DNA from: a virus
Virus record (IMG/VR): IMGVR_UViG_3300027983_000014
Coordinates: 1 to 63,015 of that record
DNA: 63,015 bases
Direction: 5' to 3' (one strand)
The notes beneath the pieces are model-generated. The model was not told where the DNA came from. It saw only the letters and a program-made list of their open reading frames with translations, and made no database searches. Each line of letters opens with the position of its first letter. Positions within the stretch are counted from its first letter, which is position 1. Shown piece after piece: positions 2,954 through 43,705 of the stretch. A program made the translations under genes and the position numbers.

Positions 2954-5900
2954 TCAGATTCCGCAGGACCCGCCTCGACACTTTTCTTCATCTTCTTCAA
3001 AGACTACGCCGATATGATTTATCGCCTGTTCATAAGGAACCGTTGTTAGGGGCTGACCACCACGGCTGCCGTCAGGATAGGCGGTTACGCCGCGAAGCTT
3101 AGGCAGATGCTTATAAAGCATGTCCGCAAACCCCTCGGCCTCCTTTTCATCCTCAATCGCGTAAGGCAGGTTGATAGTAGACGAAATTGCATGATCGACC
3201 CATTGCTGAACCCATGCTTGAAATACAACGCGCTTTTCCACATTATAAGACAAAGCATAAGCGTCTTCGATGCTGTCAGGGTCGACACCATCCCGCTCGA
3301 TCAATCTTTGAGCAGTCGGATCGATGACATATTGGTAGTTGACCTTGTCTTTCCCATTAGTCTGAGCGGTCCGGACGCGACGCTTGAAAGCAACAGCGAA
3401 AATCGGCTCGATGCCTGTAGTTGTCTCCGCAACAATTCCGATGGTGCCGGTCGGAGCGATTGCTCGCGTCTTAACCGGCCTGCTGAGATTGTGCTGATCG
3501 GCCCACTCGGCTGCGTGATCCGTAGACGAAGCATAGAGGTCTAGCCATCCGGCCAGCTCGTCATTCGGTCCGTATTCGTAGCCCTTCTTAAGAAGCCATT
3601 CGTGGATCCCCATGAGGCCTAGGCCAAGGCGTCTGTTCTTTTCACGAACGTCATGGACCTTGTCGTAGGGGAGATCTGAATACACCGTCCCGGCGACGAG
3701 GAAGAGCGTTCCGTATTTGACAAGATCTGCCATCTCTTCCTTACTTTCTACATTAGCCAGATTGATACTGCCCAAGTTGCAGACGTCCGAATCGTCATGG
3801 CTAGTTAATTCTGTGCAATTAGAAATGATCACACCTTCGGCCATAAACGAATGCTCCAAAGCGTGCACATCGGCACAATAAACGTCTTCAACGCCATCTT
3901 CTACAACCTCGATCACCTTCACGAAAGACTGACGGTAGGAGACATAGTCACCCATCTTGGGCTTTAGCCGATGTGTCGGGATGGTTTCAGCAAAATCTTT
4001 GTTTGAGTCCGAGGCGACAACCAATTGATGAATCTGGCCTTTGCCATTGGAGATATGAGACAGGATGCCAACCTGCTCAAGCGCCCTTGACACGCCCCTC
4101 AGGAACCCTCGGTGCTTGGAAGAAAGCCTGATTCTTTGTTGATTGCCTTCGTAGTTTCCGTCAGCATCAAATAAACCGGCGATGAATGATTTTATCGTGT
4201 CGCTATCAGCTTCGTAAAGATCTTCTGGGAACCGGTCTTTAGGGCGCCCAGACCATTTTTCATCAACGCTAAAGTAGAGACGCGTATAACCTCTGCTGTC
4301 AGATTCGTTGACTGAGGCCGCTCCTACAAGCGCCGGGGCGCAGGCCTTGGATTCTTCTGTACAAAGCGTAAGGTCCACTCCGCCAGCCTTATGGAAAGAC
4401 CCGTCTCCATAAATGAATCCGAGCGTATAAGCCTCTTTGTCAATTTGGGTGCTGACAGGGTCCGGCAGAGCGACATGCAGCCGGTCGCTAGGCCGAAGGT
4501 TCTTGGCCTTAACGCGCACGATGGCATCCAGCCTCCTTCTACTTTTGCCTAGCCCCACCCACTTCTCAACCAAGAATTCGTGGTCCGGCTCGCAACGGAT
4601 GTTCCGTCCGCCAGTCATTGTAACCTTGAAAATACGGGCATCTTCGTATGTCTTCGCGAAGACGACATTCTCGGCCCACCGCATCCCGGTCCACACCGTC
4701 GTGGGTTGGTCCACAATTGCCCCTACGGCCTTGTAGCCTTTGTCGGTCAGCACATGGGTCGCCGCCACTACTGGCGCATTCCTTAAGGTCTCGCCAGCAT
4801 TGTCTCCTACGTCAATACTTAGCCCCGGCTCGGCAGTTTTAACCATGTTCTCGACGGTCATTTTGTAGATCTTTTTGGCGATCTCGTGCTTGTCGTGCGA
4901 CTCGTCGTCGTAGGCTTGAAAGAATTCGTCATTGAGGAGAACAGAAATATTCGTGAACTCCATCTCGGCCGGGAAAGAGAAGTCCTTTTCTTTGATCGCC
5001 CGAATTTCATCCGGCCAATTCTTCATGTTGATGAAGTCTTCGCAGTCTTCGTGATCCCACCTAAGACCGGCCCAGATCGCGGAATTGTGAACAAGGTATC
5101 CGTTGGTTACGAATTCACTTTTATCCTCTACCTCGATGTCCCAAGTTTCGACAGAGCGGGCCGGTCCGATTCCAATAACCTTGACCGGAGTGAATGTTTG
5201 TGGACCAAAATCTTTCTCAATTTGGTCGATGGAGATTGATAAGTCGTCCTTGCGCTTGGTGCTAACAAGTTTTCTTGGCAGCGAATATGAATGCTGGCTC
5301 CCGGTGCGGGGAGTGTAGGCGGTCTTATGACCGATGCCTCCCACCATGTCTAGATAGAGTTTAACATTTTTGTTGCTAACAATGTTCAGATGATAGAGGG
5401 ACTTCCAGTTTCCTCGCTCTGATCGGACCAGACAGATCCGGCTTGCAACGCCCAGCGTTGAAAGGAGGATTTGGACTTCCTCAAGGTGTTCCTTGTAGAC
5501 CGATGAGGCAATATTAAACGGTCGAGTATCACAAGATCCGTCTGCGTCTTGTAAGCCAGCCACATAAGCCGCTCGGATTAGCGGTGAACCATTTTGGATA
5601 AATTTAGGAATCGATATGGAGACCCCGCTTTGCTTAAACTGAGACATGTAGGAAGCAAGCTGTACCGAATAGACCATGACAACCGAACAGTCTCCGTCAC
5701 CTTCTACGATCTTGACTCCCTCCGCCCACCTCGAAAGCTCACTAACGGCGGCTTCAATAATTTCTGGACGGTCGTTTGCGCAGGCGATACCGATCCTTCC
5801 ATGTCTTTTGGTCCCAGAACTATTGTCGTCGCGTAAGGATACGTGCCCGTCGCCATGGATCAAACCAAGAAGCCATGCAGACCCTTCATCAAGGTCTGGA

Positions 5901-6814
5901 ACGGTTATACTCTTTACCGACGCCAGCCGCATCGCACGCCAGCTTCCAAGTGCCGGTTTGTCGTATGTGTTTGCTGGCCAACAAGTATCTTGTCCTTCGG
6001 TACAAGCATTCACAAAGTAAAGACTGTCCCCATCTTCAAGGTCCCCCGCTTCTTTCCAAGAGTAGCTCCCGAGTCCGTCAAGAACTGCGACCCTGTGGTT
6101 TGAGGTGCACTCTAGTGCCCCATTCTGTGTTTTTACAAAAATTGTATCTTGGATGCCTTGATTAATAACCCCGGTTACTTTGCGATATCCATCAGAAGTC
6201 ATAACATTATCTCCGACCTGAACTTCAGAGATTGCCTTAGTTTCGTACTGGGTGTGAACGGGAGAATCAAATGGCAAGCACCTTCGAGCACCGCCCTGCA
6301 TGACGCCGCGACCAACCTCATTGACCATGCGCATCAAGCTCAAAGGCCCTGAGGCTACTCCGCCAGTACGACGGATACGGGAACCCGAACAGCGGACCTC
6401 GGAATAGTCTACACCGATACCAGCGCCCGTTTGTAACGCCATGGCCGACCTGTATAGAAGCTCTGCCCAACCCTCGCGACTGTCTTCAGCCTTAAGCAAA
6501 AGGCAATTTTGGATTTGATGAAGCCCTCTGCCGGATGCGTATAGATAACGACCACCGGGCATGAACTTGCGTTGCTCAATGAAAGATAAGATCTTCTGAA
6601 ACTCTTCGTCGTAAGGGCCGTAGCCGAGAGTGCCGAGGACGTTAGAAGTCACTCGAAGGGCTGTCTGTGGCCAATCTTCAACGACATTTCCATCTTCATC
6701 TCGCCAAGCGTATTTCTGTTCGTAGACGCTTCTGGCGAACTCGCTCATCTTGGTCTTGGTCTTGGTCTCTGGAGCCTCTGTCTTTTCTGGCTCCGCTACA
6801 TCTGGTGGCATCAT
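2954..6814 (-). CDS. nrdJ: Class II (B12-dependent) ribonucleotide reductase with two inteins
   Basis: The 1286-residue precursor contains about 568 residues of extein. C104 (IQNCLLL) and C1012 (SDVCNLG) look like the redox pair, C1000 (NACTE after splicing) is the radical cysteine, and APTGTIGI is the substrate-phosphate loop. C1279 and C1284 form the C-terminal reductant pair. The SAIWAGLRWDHEDCEDFI region and the lack of a small-subunit gene nearby point to the adenosylcobalamin-dependent class. It makes deoxynucleotides for phage replication. Intein 1 (residues 179-577) follows GGARR and intein 2 (681-999) precedes C1000. The start could instead be M2 or M23. Confidence 0.93.
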   Translation of the reverse strand: MMPPDVAEPEKTEAPETKTKTKMSEFARSVYEQKYAWRDEDGNVVEDWPQTALRVTSNVLGTLGYGPYDEEFQKILSFIEQRKFMPGGRYLYASGRGLHQIQNCLLLKAEDSREGWAELLYRSAMALQTGAGIGVDYSEVRCSGSRIRRTGGVASGPLSLMRMVNEVGRGVMQGGARRCLPFDSPVHTQYETKAISEVQVGDNVMTSDGYRKVTGVINQGIQDTIFVKTQNGALECTSNHRVAVLDGLGSYSWKEAGDLEDGDSLYFVNACTEGQDTCWPANTYDKPALGSWRAMRLASVKSITVPDLDEGSAWLLGLIHGDGHVSLRDDNSSGTKRHGRIGIACANDRPEIIEAAVSELSRWAEGVKIVEGDGDCSVVMVYSVQLASYMSQFKQSGVSISIPKFIQNGSPLIRAAYVAGLQDADGSCDTRPFNIASSVYKEHLEEVQILLSTLGVASRICLVRSERGNWKSLYHLNIVSNKNVKLYLDMVGGIGHKTAYTPRTGSQHSYSLPRKLVSTKRKDDLSISIDQIEKDFGPQTFTPVKVIGIGPARSVETWDIEVEDKSEFVTNGYLVHNSAIWAGLRWDHEDCEDFINMKNWPDEIRAIKEKDFSFPAEMEFTNISVLLNDEFFQAYDDESHDKHEIAKKIYKMTVENMVKTAEPGLSIDVGDNAGETLRNAPVVAATHVLTDKGYKAVGAIVDQPTTVWTGMRWAENVVFAKTYEDARIFKVTMTGGRNIRCEPDHEFLVEKWVGLGKSRRRLDAIVRVKAKNLRPSDRLHVALPDPVSTQIDKEAYTLGFIYGDGSFHKAGGVDLTLCTEESKACAPALVGAASVNESDSRGYTRLYFSVDEKWSGRPKDRFPEDLYEADSDTIKSFIAGLFDADGNYEGNQQRIRLSSKHRGFLRGVSRALEQVGILSHISNGKGQIHQLVVASDSNKDFAETIPTHRLKPKMGDYVSYRQSFVKVIEVVEDGVEDVYCADVHALEHSFMAEGVIISNCTELTSHDDSDVCNLGSINLANVESKEEMADLVKYGTLFLVAGTVYSDLPYDKVHDVREKNRRLGLGLMGIHEWLLKKGYEYGPNDELAGWLDLYASSTDHAAEWADQHNLSRPVKTRAIAPTGTIGIVAETTTGIEPIFAVAFKRRVRTAQTNGKDKVNYQYVIDPTAQRLIERDGVDPDSIEDAYALSYNVEKRVVFQAWVQQWVDHAISSTINLPYAIEDEKEAEGFADMLYKHLPKLRGVTAYPDGSRGGQPLTTVPYEQAINHIGVVFEEDEEKCRGGSCGI
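3818..4774 (-). mobile_element. Intein 2 in ribonucleotide reductase, non-canonical N-terminus
   Basis: This 319-residue insertion lies between GETLRNA and C1000-TEL. Block A aligns well (VLTDKGYKAVGAI), but position 1 is Pro681, not Cys or Ser. Block B has E in place of the TxxH threonine but keeps the His. The residue before the final N999 is Ser, not His. Block F has Cys980 (DVYCADV). YTLGFIYGDG (796-805) and FIAGLFDADG (877-886) mark a LAGLIDADG endonuclease. It is either a class-3-like splicer using Cys980 or a weakened intein. Confidence 0.85.
5084..6280 (-). mobile_element. Intein 1 in ribonucleotide reductase, with LAGLIDADG endonuclease
   Basis: This 399-residue insertion starts at C179 and ends at H576-N577, followed by S578. 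These are canonical class 1 splice residues. The block B TxxH is T237-S-N-H240. Two dodecapeptides, WLLGLIHGDG (314-323) and YVAGLQDADG (417-426), identify a LAGLIDADG homing endonuclease. The flanking extein reads GGARR then SAIW, a site commonly used by inteins in this enzyme family. All splicing motifs appear intact. Confidence 0.93.
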
Positions 6815-13575: not shown

Positions 13576-13824
13576 ATGCTCACGCAGGATGCCATCGCAT
13601 GGGCCGGTAGAATGCTTGAAGATTTCTACACGATCCATAAGAACGAGAACGCCCGCGATATGGCGGAGGCCGTCACGACCCTGAGAGAAGGGTACGGTAT
13701 CGACGACGAGATTGCGGATCTATACATTCGTTGGATCCACAAATTCGTCGGCGAAGAATATGACGAGCCAATGCTGTTAGGCCTCCTCGTGGGCGTTATG
13801 GCTTCGGAATACGAAAAGTGGTAA
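13576..13824 (+). CDS. Small hypothetical protein
   Basis: This 82-residue, probably all-helical protein begins MLTQDAIAWAGRMLEDFYT and contains a hydrophobic C-terminal helix (MLLGLLVGVMASEYEKW). It is 10 bp downstream of the putative SSB gene. No motif was recognised. The hydrophobic segment is short and amphipathic, not clearly transmembrane. Confidence 0.75.
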   Translation: MLTQDAIAWAGRMLEDFYTIHKNENARDMAEAVTTLREGYGIDDEIADLYIRWIHKFVGEEYDEPMLLGLLVGVMASEYEKW

Positions 13825-13863
13825 AAATTGGATAATGCGTGACCTTTGCACCGATCCATAACC

Positions 13864-13882
13864 ACAGCGGATACCCCGCTGT
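13864..13882 (+). promoter_or_regulatory. Hairpin abutting the dnaE ribosome-binding site
   Basis: ACAGCGG (13864-13870) pairs with CCGCTGT (13876-13882) around a 5-nt loop. It ends directly against AAGGAGG (13883-13889), the ribosome site of the polymerase gene. A 7-bp hairpin here could tune translation or bind a protein. Confidence 0.45.
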
Positions 13883-13902
13883 AAGGAGGTGGTACGTCCG
13901 AT

Positions 13903-16900
13903 ATGAATTTTGCCCCCATACATAATCATTCGGAGTATTGACTCCGCTCTTGACGGTCTTTCGACTTGTCGAGAAATTGCCATCCGCTGCCAAGAAATCG
14001 GATGCTCATGCTGCGGTCTGAGCGACCATGGCACCGTTTCAGGACACTTGGAGTTTGCTCGTGTAATGGGCGAGTACGGCATCAAGCCGGTATTCGCCGT
14101 CGAGGCCTACCATGGTGTCAAAACGGAGTTCAATAAAAGCGAGCGCGACCAAGCCCATTTCGTGGCCGGAGCGCTAACTGACGAGGGTTTGCGCAATGTG
14201 TGGCGCATAGTCGATGCAGCGTCAGACAACTTCCGCTTTGTCGGTCGCGCCAATTGGGACATCCTTGAAAAGTACAGCGAGGGGGTGTTCGCTACATCGG
14301 CGTGCATTCAGGGTCTTGTCGGACAGGGGGTTCTCAAGGGGGATCCTTATGAGCCTCTGAATAGATACCTTGAGATCTTCAAAGACAACTTTTACATCGA
14401 GATCCACACCTACCCCGGTGAGGAACACGAGCGACTAAATTTGGATCTGGTCAGCATCGCCCAAGAAAGGGGCATCCCGCTGATCTATTCTACAGACGCA
14501 CACTTCGCCGGACCTGACCAATATGAGGTCCACGATGCCTACGTAGCCGCACAAACTGGTGAAGATGTGATGATGGATCCGCAGGACAGGAAGATGTGGC
14601 ATCCGAAGGCGCTGTTTATTCAAGACGAAGAACAGATCCGCGAAAGCCTGAGCTACCTGCCAGACTCGGTAGTCGACGAAGCTCTAAGAAACAGCGGAGA
14701 GCTTGGCGAGAACTGCAACGCTCAACTGCCGGGGGTCGAGCGTCATCTGCCCGCCTTTATCCCTGCTGAGTGCCCATGGTTTGACAAGAAAGACAAGAAG
14801 AGCAGCGCAGCCGCCCTGTTTGTTAGCTTGGTGGAAAGCGGGATGGTCGAGCGCTACGGCGACAATGCTCCGGTCGAGACATGGGAGCGCGCCGAGCAGG
14901 AGCTTGAGGTCTTTCTCGATGCGGGGCTAGAGAATTACTTTCTTCAAACTTGGGATTTCTGCCAGTACTGCGACAACAACAACATCAAGAGGGGTCCGGG
15001 TCGAGGCTCTGCTGCTGGGGCGATTGTCGCATATGCACTTGGCATCACCGATGTCGACCCGATCAAGTACGGACTGATCTTCGAGCGGTTCTACAATCCG
15101 GGTCGCGAAAAAGGGTTTCCTGACATCGACAACGACTTCCCGGTCAAGGACCGTAAGCGCGTGCGCGAATACCTGATGGAGCGCTGGGGTCACGACAAGG
15201 TGCGGACAATCGGGACCATCACCCGAATGAAGCCCAAGGCGACCATCGACCGCACCTACAAAGCTTGCCGCGTCACCTTCGAAGAGAAGGAAGCCCTAAA
15301 GCGCATTGTAAACCGGGTTCCTGACATCGACATTCTGGGACCGGACTCCATCGGCTGGGACGAAGAGCTTGATCCCGGCAAAACGGTTTATGTCCTTGAC
15401 CCTAGTACCGAAATTCCGGGAAGGATTGATGAGTGGTTAAGCGGCCTGCACGAAGACCGTCGCGGAGTCGTCAACTATTGGCTAGAGATTGTGCGCCATG
15501 TTTGCTCCCGGGTATCCGGATATGGGGTTCATCCGTCAGGGGTCGTCGTGTCCGACGTGACCCTGCAAGGCGAACTCCCCTGCATGTGGAACGCCAAACA
15601 GAAGGTGCACGTAACGTGCTTCCCGATGTCCGACGTTGACCGCCGGATGTTTGTCAAGCAGGACCTTCTGGGTCTGCGCAACCTCGACACCCTTCAGGAC
15701 TGGGAGGATCAGGTCTCTCCGCTGGTCGGCGCAATCGACTGGTCGTCATTGTCAGACGACGATTTAGAAGAAGAGGGCTGGAGGCTTTTGGACGTGGGAT
15801 TGACGTTAGGGGTCTTCCAAATCGAGAAGGGTTACGCCCGCCAACTGTGTAAAGACTTCAAGCCTCGTAGCATCGAAGACCTAGGGATCATCGTTGCCCT
15901 CAACCGCCCCGGCCCAATCCGCTCGGGAGCACCTGACTCCTTTATCGCCCGACGCAATGGCGACGAAGCTGTTACCTATGATCACCCCATTCTTGAGGAC
16001 ATTCTGGAGCCGACCTACGGGTGGTTCCTTTATCAGGAGCAGGTGATCGCATTCTTTTCGAAGCTTGGATTCAGCCTAGGCGAAGCAGATGCCGTGCGCA
16101 AAATCCTTGGCAAGAAGAAGCCAGCAGAGATGAAGGCTTTGCGCGACGGCAAGAGAGAGTGGTCTGGCAAGGGGTACTTTGATGCTGCCGAAGCGGCTGG
16201 AGTCGACCCTCAAAGTGCAGACGCCATCTGGGCCAAAGTCGAGGACTTCGCTAAATACTCGTTCAACAAAAGCCACGCGATTGCCTATGCAACAATCGCC
16301 TTTAGAACCTTGTACGCCAAATACAACGCCCCGGCCCAATTCGTTATGGCTTGCATCCGAACGAACCCTGATGATGCGGGTGATTATGTTGGCGAGGGTC
16401 GTCGCATGGGGATCAAGGTGCTGCCTCCTGACATCATGAGGTCAGGCACAGAGGTGGCGGTGGTCAATAGCGACATCTACTTTGGGTTCAGCAATATCAA
16501 GGGCATCGGCAAAGGCAGCGCTGAATTCTTGTGCCGGTTGCGAGACGAATACGATCTGTCTAGCCCTGAGCTTTTGTTTGACGCCATCGAGCACAAACAG
16601 AAGGGTTGGTCTGAAAGGCAGAAAGAGGGCAAGCTCAAGGAAAAGTCGCCCCGGCAACAATTTCGGCAGCACCTCATCCCCCTGTTGGAACAGGCTGGCG
16701 CGTGGCAAGACTATGAGTCTCAAAAGCTAACGATGTCAGAAAAGCAGAAGTTAGAAAAAGAGCTTCTGGGTGTGATCCTTACCGACGACTGCGACAAGAT
16801 CTTTGACAAAAATGCAGACGCCATCGAGAACTGCGACTCTTACGCAGATCTTGAGCTGGGCGACGGGGAAAAGCTGCGCCTCGCGGGAGCCATTTCTTCT

Positions 16901-17104
16901 ATAGTTGGGAAGAAGACCAAGAAGGACGGGAAGGCAATGGGGATCGTCACAATTGAGCATCGAGGCGACTCGACCGAATTCGTTGTCTTCCCTAGGCAGT
17001 GGCAGGACTACAAATTCTTGTGGAAAGAGCGCACACCTGCTATATTTACTCTGCATAAAGGTGACCGAGGGGTGCGCTTTGAAGACGCCATTAAACTGCA
17101 ATAG
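13903..17104 (+). CDS. dnaE: DNA polymerase III alpha subunit (DnaE), apparent +1 frameshift near start
   Basis: About 1066 residues of C-family polymerase are encoded. ATG at 13903 gives MNFAPIHNHSEY, the PHP HxH motif, then TGA at 13939. The following frame from 13940 continues DSALDGLST...GCCGLSDHGTV and on through the enzyme. The two frames join if one T (13939) is skipped. The active-site block GPGRGSAAGA...PDIDNDF is intact, with basic palm and finger segments after it. The only start available in the main frame is a poor TTG at 13910 that loses HxH. It is either recoding at UAU-UGA-C or an indel. Confidence 0.93.
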
Positions 17105-39865: not shown

Positions 39866-41418
39866 TCTCCTTTTACACTCGGAGGAGCTGGGGACGGACC
39901 ATTGCCCACCGTAGGAGCCTTGTTCATTGCCATGCTCCCGGCTCTAATCATTCCCTCATGGGCAGAAAGGTTGCCAGTTCTAACGGTTTGCCCATTCTGA
40001 TTTCGCGTGATGGCTGCCGGGGCACTTAACTGCGCGGTTGTGTGGAAGCCGCTTCCAAAGTCGGCGACATGGCTGACTGAATCGATATAGCACTGTATCC
40101 CGTGCCGAGGAAACGAAACGATGCCCCCCGGATACAGCTCGGGCATATACGTGAACTCAAACGTAGTCACAAACTGTCGTGACCACATCAGCATGAACTT
40201 TTGATAAGCAAGAAAAGCCTCGAAGTAGGGGGAGCGGATCATTGGAGCTTCTTCGAAATAGGGACGGGCGCCATACTTCTTCAAAAAGTTGATGGCCTGC
40301 TCATTATTAATGTTAATTTGAGCGCTAGAATCATCTTTGTACTTATTGTTATCCTGATTGTCGCTCATTGGCTTTCCTGCAAGGGGTCCGTGATGGTACG
40401 GATCTGCTTCAATTTCAGTTTGGTCGCTTGTCGCAGAGGTCGGGTTGCCAGACAGGAAGTCTGCTTGAAATGCAGTAAAAACTGTGGCCACTCCGCCACT
40501 TTGGATTTTGTCGAATAGATTCACTCCATCGAAGTTGGCGATGTCACCAACTACATATACATGGGTCGCCAAACTGTCGTCTGAAAGATCAATCTCTCCG
40601 TTCAATATTTCGATGTCTTCAATCTCCCAGTATGGGGTCCTATGATTGAGGCCGCCAAAGTAATCGGGGAAGAAAGCAAAGAAGCCTCCGTCTGGCAGCG
40701 ACTGAAAATTACGTAGCGATGCTGCACATAGCTGCTGCACGAAGGGCATGAGCGGCTGATCGTTAAGAAGAGACCTTTCGCCTCGCAAAGCCATCGACTC
40801 TGCCATATCCATAATGCCGGGGACGGCGATGAATGTGGCAAAGGCGCTAGCCTTGGCGACCCCGGCAATTTGGGCGAGGGTGGCTTGAGTGGCGTCGTCG
40901 CCCGGAACCGCCGCGCCCCCGTCTTGTGTGTCCGAGCCATCAAGCCACGGCTCAGGGTCAACCAACGTGCCATTACGCTTTAGACCAAAGTGCAGGTGCG
41001 GCCCGGTGGAGTTGCCCGTGCTCCCAACCGCACCGATGGTGTCGCCCTTCTTAACGCCCTTTCTAACCTGAACAGACATCTTACTAAGGTGCAGATATTG
41101 TGTGACAGTCCCGCCGCCATGATCAATTTCAATCATCTTGCCCGCGTCGCCTGCTATCGCGGCAAAAGTAACACGTCCGTCTTTGACGGCAAAAACGGGC
41201 GTCCCTTCTGGAGCTTGGATGTCGATGCCTTTATGATCGCTAGACGCTCCGGCAGTAGGCGAAGTCCTAGGTCCGAAGTCAGAACCGTCGCCTGTGCCCA
41301 TTTTGTATTTGCCGGGGACAGGCCACATGGGCTTGTTGCTCTCAGTCGGCGGAGTTCGAGGGCCGTCTGGCTGCGCACGAGGATAACGAGGAGCCGCTGG
41401 TCTAGTAGGTCCGGGCAT
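39862..41418 (-). CDS. Hub-family protein A3 with M23 metallopeptidase domain
   Basis: This 518-residue paralogue starts with the same Pro-rich leader as A2. An M23 domain follows: H62 and D66 (HKGID), H110 (YLHLS) and H141-L-H143 (PHLHF), all conserved. The shared hub domain starts at about 190 (MALRGERSLLNDQPLMPFVQ). It is one base from the transglycosylase-bearing hub protein. Compared with A2 the M23 domain is more canonical, so the two could have different bond specificity. Confidence 0.92.
   Translation of the reverse strand: MPGPTRPAAPRYPRAQPDGPRTPPTESNKPMWPVPGKYKMGTGDGSDFGPRTSPTAGASSDHKGIDIQAPEGTPVFAVKDGRVTFAAIAGDAGKMIEIDHGGGTVTQYLHLSKMSVQVRKGVKKGDTIGAVGSTGNSTGPHLHFGLKRNGTLVDPEPWLDGSDTQDGGAAVPGDDATQATLAQIAGVAKASAFATFIAVPGIMDMAESMALRGERSLLNDQPLMPFVQQLCAASLRNFQSLPDGGFFAFFPDYFGGLNHRTPYWEIEDIEILNGEIDLSDDSLATHVYVVGDIANFDGVNLFDKIQSGGVATVFTAFQADFLSGNPTSATSDQTEIEADPYHHGPLAGKPMSDNQDNNKYKDDSSAQININNEQAINFLKKYGARPYFEEAPMIRSPYFEAFLAYQKFMLMWSRQFVTTFEFTYMPELYPGGIVSFPRHGIQCYIDSVSHVADFGSGFHTTAQLSAPAAITRNQNGQTVRTGNLSAHEGMIRAGSMAMNKAPTVGNGPSPAPPSVKGE
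40517..40581 (-). repeat. 65-bp direct repeat, copy 2 (in A3)
   Basis: Identical to 38874-38938. It lies in the same position of the homologous hub domain. Confidence 0.85.
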
Positions 41419-41421
41419 TAC
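41363..41421 (-). repeat. 59-bp direct repeat, copy 2 (start of A3)
   Basis: Identical to 39807-39865, covering the start of A3 and three bases before it. Confidence 0.88.
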
Positions 41422-42560
41422 CGATACTTGCCCCAGCCGCCGCCGTCTCCGGCATTACGTGAAGACTCCCATGGCTGCATCCCGCCCGACTTGAAGAGGG
41501 AGAGAGCCGCCTTGGCGTTGTTGAAAGGGTTGCGCATGTCGCCATGTAAGCGGACTAGATCCGGATGCACCTTAACATAAATTTGCCACAAGCCCTCGCA
41601 GCCGATGCTGTTAACCAGACCGGGCTTGAGTGATGACTCAGCGAAGGCCACGCGACGAAATAGCTTTGCGTCCTTCTCGCTAAAGCCAACATACTTCGCT
41701 ATAGAAAACACCTGACTGGGGTCCAAAACGTCAGACCCATTTTCAGGGTACACTCGATCTAGGCCTTGGAGTTCAGCATCTTGGACATTGTTGTCCCCGC
41801 TATCACCACCACCATTGTCAAGTGCGCTGCCGTAAGACCCGCCACCGAGCGCCCCCTCCAAGAAATAATTGAGGTCGGCGCGGGCCGACGCCTCGGCCGT
41901 TAATGCCATTTCCTTGTAGATGTTTTCTACGGTGTCGACGATGCCGTCAGGCAAACTTTCAATGAAAATTGTTTCATCAGACCAGCCGCCGATTTCAATA
42001 AGTGTGTCAAATAGCAATCCGCCTATCGAACCATCGGTTTGCTTTACATACGGGGTTCCGTCGGGCCTGAACTTTTTCGCAGGGGCTGTTTCTTCTTGGG
42101 GATTTGTGATTCCGCCAAGCTGCGCGTTGACCTGCCACCCGTGAGACTGAAGAAACTCCCAAACAAAAGGAAGCCCCGGATCGAAATAGGTGTAGAGAAG
42201 GCGCTTAATAGTGCAACTGGCTTTGATCTTGCATGTCCCGGGGAATAGCTGGATGTACGGGGTCGTATCACAAAACCCAGTGAACACTTGCATGGGCCGA
42301 TCTTTGATCCTAGTCATTGTGATCACGATAGGGTCCATGGGATGGAAAATTGGTCCCCGTGTCGACGTCTTTGAAACCGAGTCGTAAGTCTTGCTGTCCG
42401 TCCAGATAAACTGAGGGTTGCGGAACTCTACTTCGGCCGTGCTGACTGCGTCGATTTGGCGATTAACCGAACAGCTTGTCACGTAGGGGCTTAGATCGTA
42501 AATGCCAGAATCTGTTTTGACAAATACATCGACTCTTGGAGTGTAAACTAGGCGTTTCAA
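41418..42560 (-). CDS. Hub-family protein B1 with lytic transglycosylase domain
   Basis: This 380-residue protein has an N-terminal hub-like domain shared with the next gene (MKRLVYTPRVD...IKDRPMQVFTGF...RLLYTYFDPGLPFV). A linker precedes a C-terminal SLT-type domain (about 283-380): E308 in VAFAESS, then GCEGLWQI and PFNNAKAAL. It should cut the glycan backbone. The catalytic Glu and the surrounding motifs look intact. It overlaps B2 by 4 bp and A3 by one base. Confidence 0.9.
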   Translation of the reverse strand: MKRLVYTPRVDVFVKTDSGIYDLSPYVTSCSVNRQIDAVSTAEVEFRNPQFIWTDSKTYDSVSKTSTRGPIFHPMDPIVITMTRIKDRPMQVFTGFCDTTPYIQLFPGTCKIKASCTIKRLLYTYFDPGLPFVWEFLQSHGWQVNAQLGGITNPQEETAPAKKFRPDGTPYVKQTDGSIGGLLFDTLIEIGGWSDETIFIESLPDGIVDTVENIYKEMALTAEASARADLNYFLEGALGGGSYGSALDNGGGDSGDNNVQDAELQGLDRVYPENGSDVLDPSQVFSIAKYVGFSEKDAKLFRRVAFAESSLKPGLVNSIGCEGLWQIYVKVHPDLVRLHGDMRNPFNNAKAALSLFKSGGMQPWESSRNAGDGGGWGKYR

Positions 42561-43705
42561 TCTGCTCTCCTAATCTCTACGTCCCCTTTGCCCGAGAACT
42601 TAAGGGCCTTGGTGATTCCCGGTTCAAGGTCGATTTTATAATGTGCGTCACCCGCTTGCCCCGAGCCGTTGTCTACCTTAGTGATGAACCAAGTCTTGCT
42701 GGGTTTTTTGGGGTCTCGAATCTCTAGCTTAAAGCGGCATTTCAAACCGGTCGGGGTCCCGTCGGTCACTTCGCCCTTGATATCAAACAAATCCGCTAAA
42801 AACCCTCCGTTACGGGCCAATTTCAATTTTTTATTGGTGCCAGCAACGCCCAGTTCAGCATAACTGAATCCATTGTTCTTGGCTTCGTTCCCGCAGGAAA
42901 CATCTCCTCCGCTGTAATCATCCGTAGTGGCCCCAACCTTAACCCATTCGCCCTTGCCGACCCCAGACGTAACCGATCCGCCATCCTCATTCACAGCGTA
43001 GCCGCTTAGTGTGGCGGTCCCAATCATTTCTTTTAGCAGGAGTTTGATGTCTTTGAATGCTTCTTCGCTGGTCGTTTCGCGATCCGTGACCATGGCGGCC
43101 ACTAAGCTGATGATGCCCTCTGGTAATCCTTCTATGAAAATGGATTCAGGATCCCAGCCGCCGATTTCATTCAACACATCAAACAGTAGTTTGCCAATGC
43201 TTGCGTCATTTAGGCGAAGGGATTCATCTTCTACGCTTTTTTCTCCGCCGAGCTGCGTCAAGCCGGTTTGAGTATTAGTTTGCCAACCCTTTTCCTCAAG
43301 CCAAGTGTGGACAAAAGGAAGTCCCGGATCGAAGTAAGTATAAAGAAGTCGCTTCAATGTGCAAGAAGCGGTTAGTTCTACAACGCCCGGGTAAGCGGAG
43401 ATGTAGGGGGTCGTGTCTAGGAACCCAGTGAACACCTGCATAGGACGATCTTTGATGCGGGTAAGCGTAACGGTGATCTTATCCATAGGATGGAACACGG
43501 GAGCCAAAACCTTAGACCCATCGGAGTCTGTGCGCTCGCCATCGGTCCACATAAACTGCGGATTGCGCAGCGTTAAGTTAACCGTACTGACGGCGTTCTG
43601 GCGGCGAGTGACGCTACCCTTAGTGATGTATGGGCTGACATCATACAAACCCGTGTCAGTCTGAATAAAGGCGTCGACCCTAGGAGTGTAGACGAGTCTT
43701 TTCAT
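42557..43705 (-). CDS. Hub-family protein B2 with RlpA-like double-psi barrel
   Basis: This 382-residue paralogue of B1 has residues 1-230 alignable with it (shared VYTPRVD, LRNPQF, IKDRPMQVFTGF, YTYFDPGLPFV, IFIEGLP). Residues about 278-380 differ and resemble a double-psi beta-barrel: FSYAELG near the start, ITKVDNGSGQ and HYKIDL near the end, giving D345 and D359. RlpA and expansin-like proteins with this fold act on glycan strands. The assignment of this domain is less certain than the others. Confidence 0.78.
   Translation of the reverse strand: MKRLVYTPRVDAFIQTDTGLYDVSPYITKGSVTRRQNAVSTVNLTLRNPQFMWTDGERTDSDGSKVLAPVFHPMDKITVTLTRIKDRPMQVFTGFLDTTPYISAYPGVVELTASCTLKRLLYTYFDPGLPFVHTWLEEKGWQTNTQTGLTQLGGEKSVEDESLRLNDASIGKLLFDVLNEIGGWDPESIFIEGLPEGIISLVAAMVTDRETTSEEAFKDIKLLLKEMIGTATLSGYAVNEDGGSVTSGVGKGEWVKVGATTDDYSGGDVSCGNEAKNNGFSYAELGVAGTNKKLKLARNGGFLADLFDIKGEVTDGTPTGLKCRFKLEIRDPKKPSKTWFITKVDNGSGQAGDAHYKIDLEPGITKALKFSGKGDVEIRRAD

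Follow-up and report, generated by a model that had tools for sequence, protein, structure and literature searches.

The dnaE gene of this phage is broken within the DNA for its PHP motif I, where a duplicated gene start is parted from the rest of the coding sequence by a small stop-bearing scar; the same motif is a hotspot for such breaks among phage dnaE loci, in which the gene persists together with its metal ligands. The best explanation, which we hold tentatively and with somewhat less than even confidence, is that the motif is a recurrent insertion site of homing-type elements and that the resulting scar is skipped by the ribosome, an endonuclease being the probable cause and ribosomal skipping the probable rescue. 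Around the break, the window (the whole stretch of 63,015 nucleotides analysed, IMG/VR record IMGVR_UViG_3300027983_000014) carries the following features.

13576..13824, + strand: small upstream ORF of 82 aa, directly 5' of dnaE in relatives as well
13839..13880, + strand: copy 1 of the dnaE start; GTG; VTFAPIHNHSGYPA; frame 0; aligned with TTG-STFAPIHNHTEYSA of the intact relative L001
13839..13925, + strand: ORF of copy 1, 28 codons, which enters copy 2 and stops at TAA
13864..13882, + strand: hairpin where copy 1 ends, ACAGCGG-AUACC-CCGCUGU (whole 136 nt, z = -2.43)
13882..13891, + strand: UAAGGAGGUG, a 10-mer extended Shine-Dalgarno (SD) sequence, single occurrence in the window
13885..13945, + strand: predicted long hairpin, with the SD GGAG paired to CUCC just past the UGA
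13903..13938, + strand: copy 2 of the dnaE start; ATG; MNFAPIHNHSEY; frame 1; bears HxH
13939..13942, + strand: UGA-C, a 4-nt surplus relative to homologues (alternative choices of the 4 nt are equivalent)
13943..17104, + strand: remainder of DnaE (polymerase III alpha), frame 2

The encoded protein is a C-family polymerase III alpha in which the PHP, polymerase NTPase and finger domains are all present, and the PDB structures closest to it are solved DnaE structures. The arrangement of frames is as originally predicted: the ATG at 13903-13905 opens MNFAPIHNHSEY with its HxH, TGA at 13939-13941 ends it with C as the next base, and DnaE goes on in the +1 frame, reading SALDGLSTCREIAIRC... from 13943 to 17104 (TATTGACTCC gives the letters across the break as recorded, surplus bases included). 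The DnaE frame is open from 13907 and reads SALDGLSTCREI... past the break; taken alone it has TTG 13910 as its sole start and lacks HxH, as had been noted. The proposal that skipping one T repairs the gene holds only in part: the main frame is regained, but the product would be HSEY-D-SALDG, with one extra Asp, where intact homologues read HSEY-SALDG, and relative to the family the window has 4 extra nt, HSEY[TGAC]SALDG, rather than 1.

The ATG at 13903 is itself the second copy of the dnaE start, a point overlooked in the original prediction. A native-type start, GTG 13839 (TFAPIHNHSGYPA), lies 64 nt 5' of it, and in relatives the normal dnaE start codon likewise falls just past the stop of the small upstream ORF. 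Most codons of the two copies in the window differ synonymously, and copy 1 is altered at conserved positions (E to G, S to P). A special recoding of copy 2 was considered and is weakened as an idea, synonymous divergence between these lineages being high anyway. Second upstream copies of the start are confined to broken genes, those of the window and of a second locus, L075, and occur in none of the 46 intact ones. A further broken locus, L013, shares with the window both UAAGGAGGUG and the ATG copy, the 10-mer occurring once in its record, at the same place. The 10-mer is absent from the records of four intact relatives (G002-G005), and a search of viral contigs for the SD followed by ATGAAYTTYGC returned L013 as the only dnaE. 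The only other TAAGGAGGTG found lies near position 1500 on the reverse strand of L138 (record G010), ahead of an ORF, MIDTLPPDQGKFQILAKRSNYQ..., of about 40 codons. No fold matching the 13885..13945 hairpin was found in L013 or L075, nor any common RNA structure around the stop, upstream or downstream, in these two loci.

Among 50 phage dnaE loci surveyed, near-duplicates included (the main survey comprised 48), four carry a stop between the HxH and the Asp of PHP motif I, a stretch of seven codons.

Window: net +4 nt, UGA-C
L013: net +1 nt, UGA-C (GCA CTC TGA C GGT)
L075: net +6 nt, in-frame UGA-C (TCC CTT TGA CTC GAC)
L002: net +9 nt, in-frame UAG (CAC ACT CAT TAG GTT AGC TCA GAT)

The homologues to which the original prediction had looked for a decision thus give a divided answer: most are unbroken (46 of 48 in the main survey), but this motif is interrupted in L013, L075 and L002 as well, with other net lengths. 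The HxH(x6)D spacing is invariant in 46 of the 48, the exceptions being the broken L013 and L075; intact relatives include L001, L004, L005, L011, L016, L063, L064, L067, L070, L072 and L073. Four breaks within seven codons, together with the absence of any premature stop 3' of the motif in 46,646 codons (50 loci, some near-duplicates), mark the motif as a break hotspot; were breaks evenly distributed, the probability that all four fell within some 350 of 47,000 codons would be near 3e-9, a rough a posteriori estimate. All four scars hold a stop, and no sense in-frame insertion was seen at the motif. Similar breaks were absent from phage records among the matches listed, all of which align from residue 1-6. 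L002 encodes a far more distant phage DnaE, in which the TAG just after HLHTH (4974-5010) is the gene's only stop and no duplicated start was found; we regard it as a possible fourth case. By a measure picked after the fact, a random insertion of the observed length between the His and Asp codons would create UGA-C with a probability of 0.13 in the window, 0.010 in L013 and 0.009 in L075, the first value being high because CTT-GAC itself conceals UGA-C in the +1 frame. Since the net lengths in L013, L075 and L002 are +1, +6 and +9, against +4 in the window, the suggestion of one conserved +1 frameshift that sets polymerase dose is not upheld. What is seen instead resembles short insertions that have recurred at a single position in the DNA, associated with a duplicated start and, in L075, with the insertion of a putative endonuclease gene.

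In L070, the sibling of L075 (DnaE about 95% identical), the site is uninterrupted. The native start of L075 at 1541, MSLHVHSEYSSLD, continues as an ORF of 67 aa; next, at 1743 (SEYSSL), comes a third copy of the start, which is partial, and inside it begins a 245-aa ORF that matches phage endonuclease families (E 1.6e-8, 4.2e-8), with the second full copy and its UGA-C lying 3' of this putative endonuclease. A 17-nt dnaE stretch, AGYGAGTAYTCNTCNCT, is present in three copies (1559, 1743, 2480); all are interrupted immediately past the Leu 'CT', each by a different following sequence, as expected if insertion had occurred repeatedly at a single position in the DNA. A homing-type endonuclease may well have caused these insertions. 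Searches with the L075 protein retrieved no homologue but itself in viral contigs and none in phages, and its AlphaFold model (pLDDT 43) is too poor for confirmation of the fold. An HNH endonuclease ORF (5899-6318) lies directly 3' of the broken gene, so that the L075 dnaE is flanked by two endonuclease-like genes. Elsewhere in the window, a 1286-aa ribonucleotide reductase (2954-6814, - strand) matches the insertion domain of the B12-dependent class and contains an intein that encodes a LAGLIDADG homing endonuclease, a further homing element of the phage; two adjoining ORFs at 41418-43705 (- strand) begin near-identically (KRLVYTPR) and are probably paralogous tail genes.

In the explanation we favour, the DNA for PHP motif I in these phage dnaE genes would be struck repeatedly by homing-type mobile elements. 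A strike in the window, as in L075, would have duplicated the gene start, yielding a dead copy 1, a spacer with a strong SD and copy 2, and would also have left the small stop-bearing scar between copy 2 and the remainder of the gene. Ribosomes initiating on copy 2 would then pause at the UGA, a fraction of them shifting or hopping over the scar, and those that skip would return to the main reading frame and complete a full-length, HxH-bearing DnaE.

Judged from the sequence, recoding at UGA-C is probably the best decoding model. A +1 shift in L013 would give exactly SALDG and a hop across CUU-UGA-CUC in L075 exactly SSLDG, each restoring the HxH(x6)D spacing. The latter is a textbook stop-hop arrangement, and by analogy a hop may be expected there: stop hops between matched codons over 9 nt, nine bases standing for one amino acid, have been shown with synthetic constructs in E. 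coli (PMC5009743), and L075 likewise offers 9 nt for one Leu with an exact product, although as a predicted hop in a natural gene. The window is the hardest case, its route the least clear; hopping 4 nt from UAU to GAC would preserve pairing at only two of the three bases but yield the exact product, and the strong SD upstream could offset a low skipping efficiency. L002 has no evident matched hop. Given that length, frame and stop codon vary from scar to scar, there is no single conserved recoding signal. Reassignment of UGA was rejected, as copy 2 in the window would stay in the wrong frame, and so was reassignment of UAG in L002, where TAG ends normal ORFs too. No suppressor tRNA was found in the window, and no group I or II intron ribozyme core was matched in Rfam in the window, L075, L013, L070 or L080.

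Frameshifting of the RF2 (prfB) type combines a CUU (or UUU) shift codon, an SD-like sequence about 3 nt upstream and UGA-C. The resemblance originally drawn to it stands as regards the UGA-C early in the gene and the +1-frame product in the window and L013. It fails at the shift codon, which is UAU (window) or CUC (L013) and not one that re-pairs in +1 as CUU or UUU does; re-pairing of the Tyr tRNA from UAU to AUU is indeed poor, as anticipated. It also fails at the SD, since none lies 3 nt 5' of the shift codon and the GGAG described as directly upstream abuts UAU with 0 nt of spacing, and in the exactness of the product. Moreover, the net length is not +1 in the window, L075 or L002, and the site is not conserved, 46 of 48 relatives being intact and the others broken at other positions and lengths.

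For dnaE, between L013 and L027, of its intact sister lineage L016/L027 (DnaE 96% identical), dN/dS is 0.03, with non-synonymous to synonymous private codons of 6:83 in L013 and 5:102 in the sister; between L075 and L070 it is 0.09, with 14:66 and 9:52, respectively. DnaE is under strong purifying selection in both L013 and L075, and no clear non-synonymous excess was found on these broken branches, which gives no sign of decay, on branches along which the data do not date the break; in the window itself, synonymous positions have reached saturation. All seven PHP ligands 3' of the break (D15, H40, E65, H83, C132, D196 and H198 in the window frame, by alignment) are kept in the window, L013 and L075. 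Apart from D23, E73 and D226, the mapping of ligands to residues is putative. The ligand role itself is drawn from PMC5636811 and PDB 5lew; in Mtb DnaE1 nine residues bind three zinc ions, and loss of a PHP ligand destabilises the protein, while E. coli DnaE works with five of the nine altered (PMC5636811).

These observations bear on the possibility that no recoding occurs, translation ending at the stop, an HxH-less DnaE being made from an internal start and copy 2 serving as a short upstream ORF that tunes initiation. The long open frames, the ATGs 3' of the stop in L075 (2540) and L002 (5061) and the tolerance of E. coli DnaE (PMC5636811) would accommodate it, but no start position is common to the loci and HxH is retained in copy 2. 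Were the two histidines never supplied, one would expect drift at the seven other ligands, as has happened in E. coli; they are invariant, including the Asp after the scar, and loss of a ligand of this kind destabilises the Mtb enzyme (PMC5636811). We therefore consider an internal start unlikely. Much the same holds for a scar that is not programmed at all, left by recent cleavage and faulty repair in alleles that are impaired or helper-dependent, or in phages using the host polymerase. Lengths that vary at one site (+4, +1, +6, +9) and the differently interrupted target copies of L075, which look like repeated insertion, are what it would predict; a stop in all four scars with no sense in-frame insertion, and branches of L013 and L075 free of a clear non-synonymous excess, make it improbable.

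A long bypass resembling that of T4 gene 60, starting from GTG 13839 and jumping 68 nt into the main frame (AGC 13866 to AGU 13934, or GCU 13878 to GCU 13946), would explain the matched codons, the exact HxH(x6)D spacing and the hairpin at the take-off site. It is nevertheless very unlikely: take-off would occur without a slow or stop codon, conserved residues are lost in copy 1 (E to G, S to P), the GCU match may reflect descent, and a jump of about 920 nt in L075 is implausible. Least probable of all is an error of sequencing, raised at the outset, or of assembly in what is a single metagenome-derived record, because unrelated contigs (homologues on three others) break at the same motif, an indel error cannot account for a duplication whose codons have diverged, and the neighbouring genes are unbroken, thirteen of them aligning to relatives in single frames, so that the contig is not indel-prone.

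To our knowledge very few natural translational bypasses have gained acceptance, T4 gene 60 being the main phage case. There, an essential replication gene was the target of endonuclease insertion, noncoding inserted DNA that includes a stop lies near the target site, and the ribosome skips it (PMC5009743, PMC2988022). The dnaE loci resemble it in the stop-bearing insertion near a target site in a replication gene and, probably, in skipping by the ribosome; they differ in the length of the scar (1-9 nt against 50), in the duplicated gene start and in that no endonuclease was found beside the window dnaE. A neighbouring endonuclease of the gene 60 type may be represented by the putative one in L075, and none homologous to it is present in the records of the window and L013. 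Insertions of HNH sequences out of frame into phage methylase genes (PMC11855218) are similar as homing insertions in a phage gene that are neither intron nor intein, but there the host frame stays open, whereas in dnaE the start is re-supplied and the stop remains.

A stronger form of the preferred explanation, which we consider doubtful, is that endonuclease elements target an essential polymerase motif by homing and restore the gene's start with a codon-diverged, cut-resistant copy of their own, the stop-bearing scars persisting through hops of 1, 4, 6 or 9 nt whose length is set by each scar. Related phages that carry short stop-bearing scars at a single motif, several of them with exact-product hop solutions, alongside intact sisters, would make the link from homing endonuclease to scar to ribosome hopping directly testable. 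For annotation, the case is also a warning that a phage polymerase gene that looks "broken" may be expressed.
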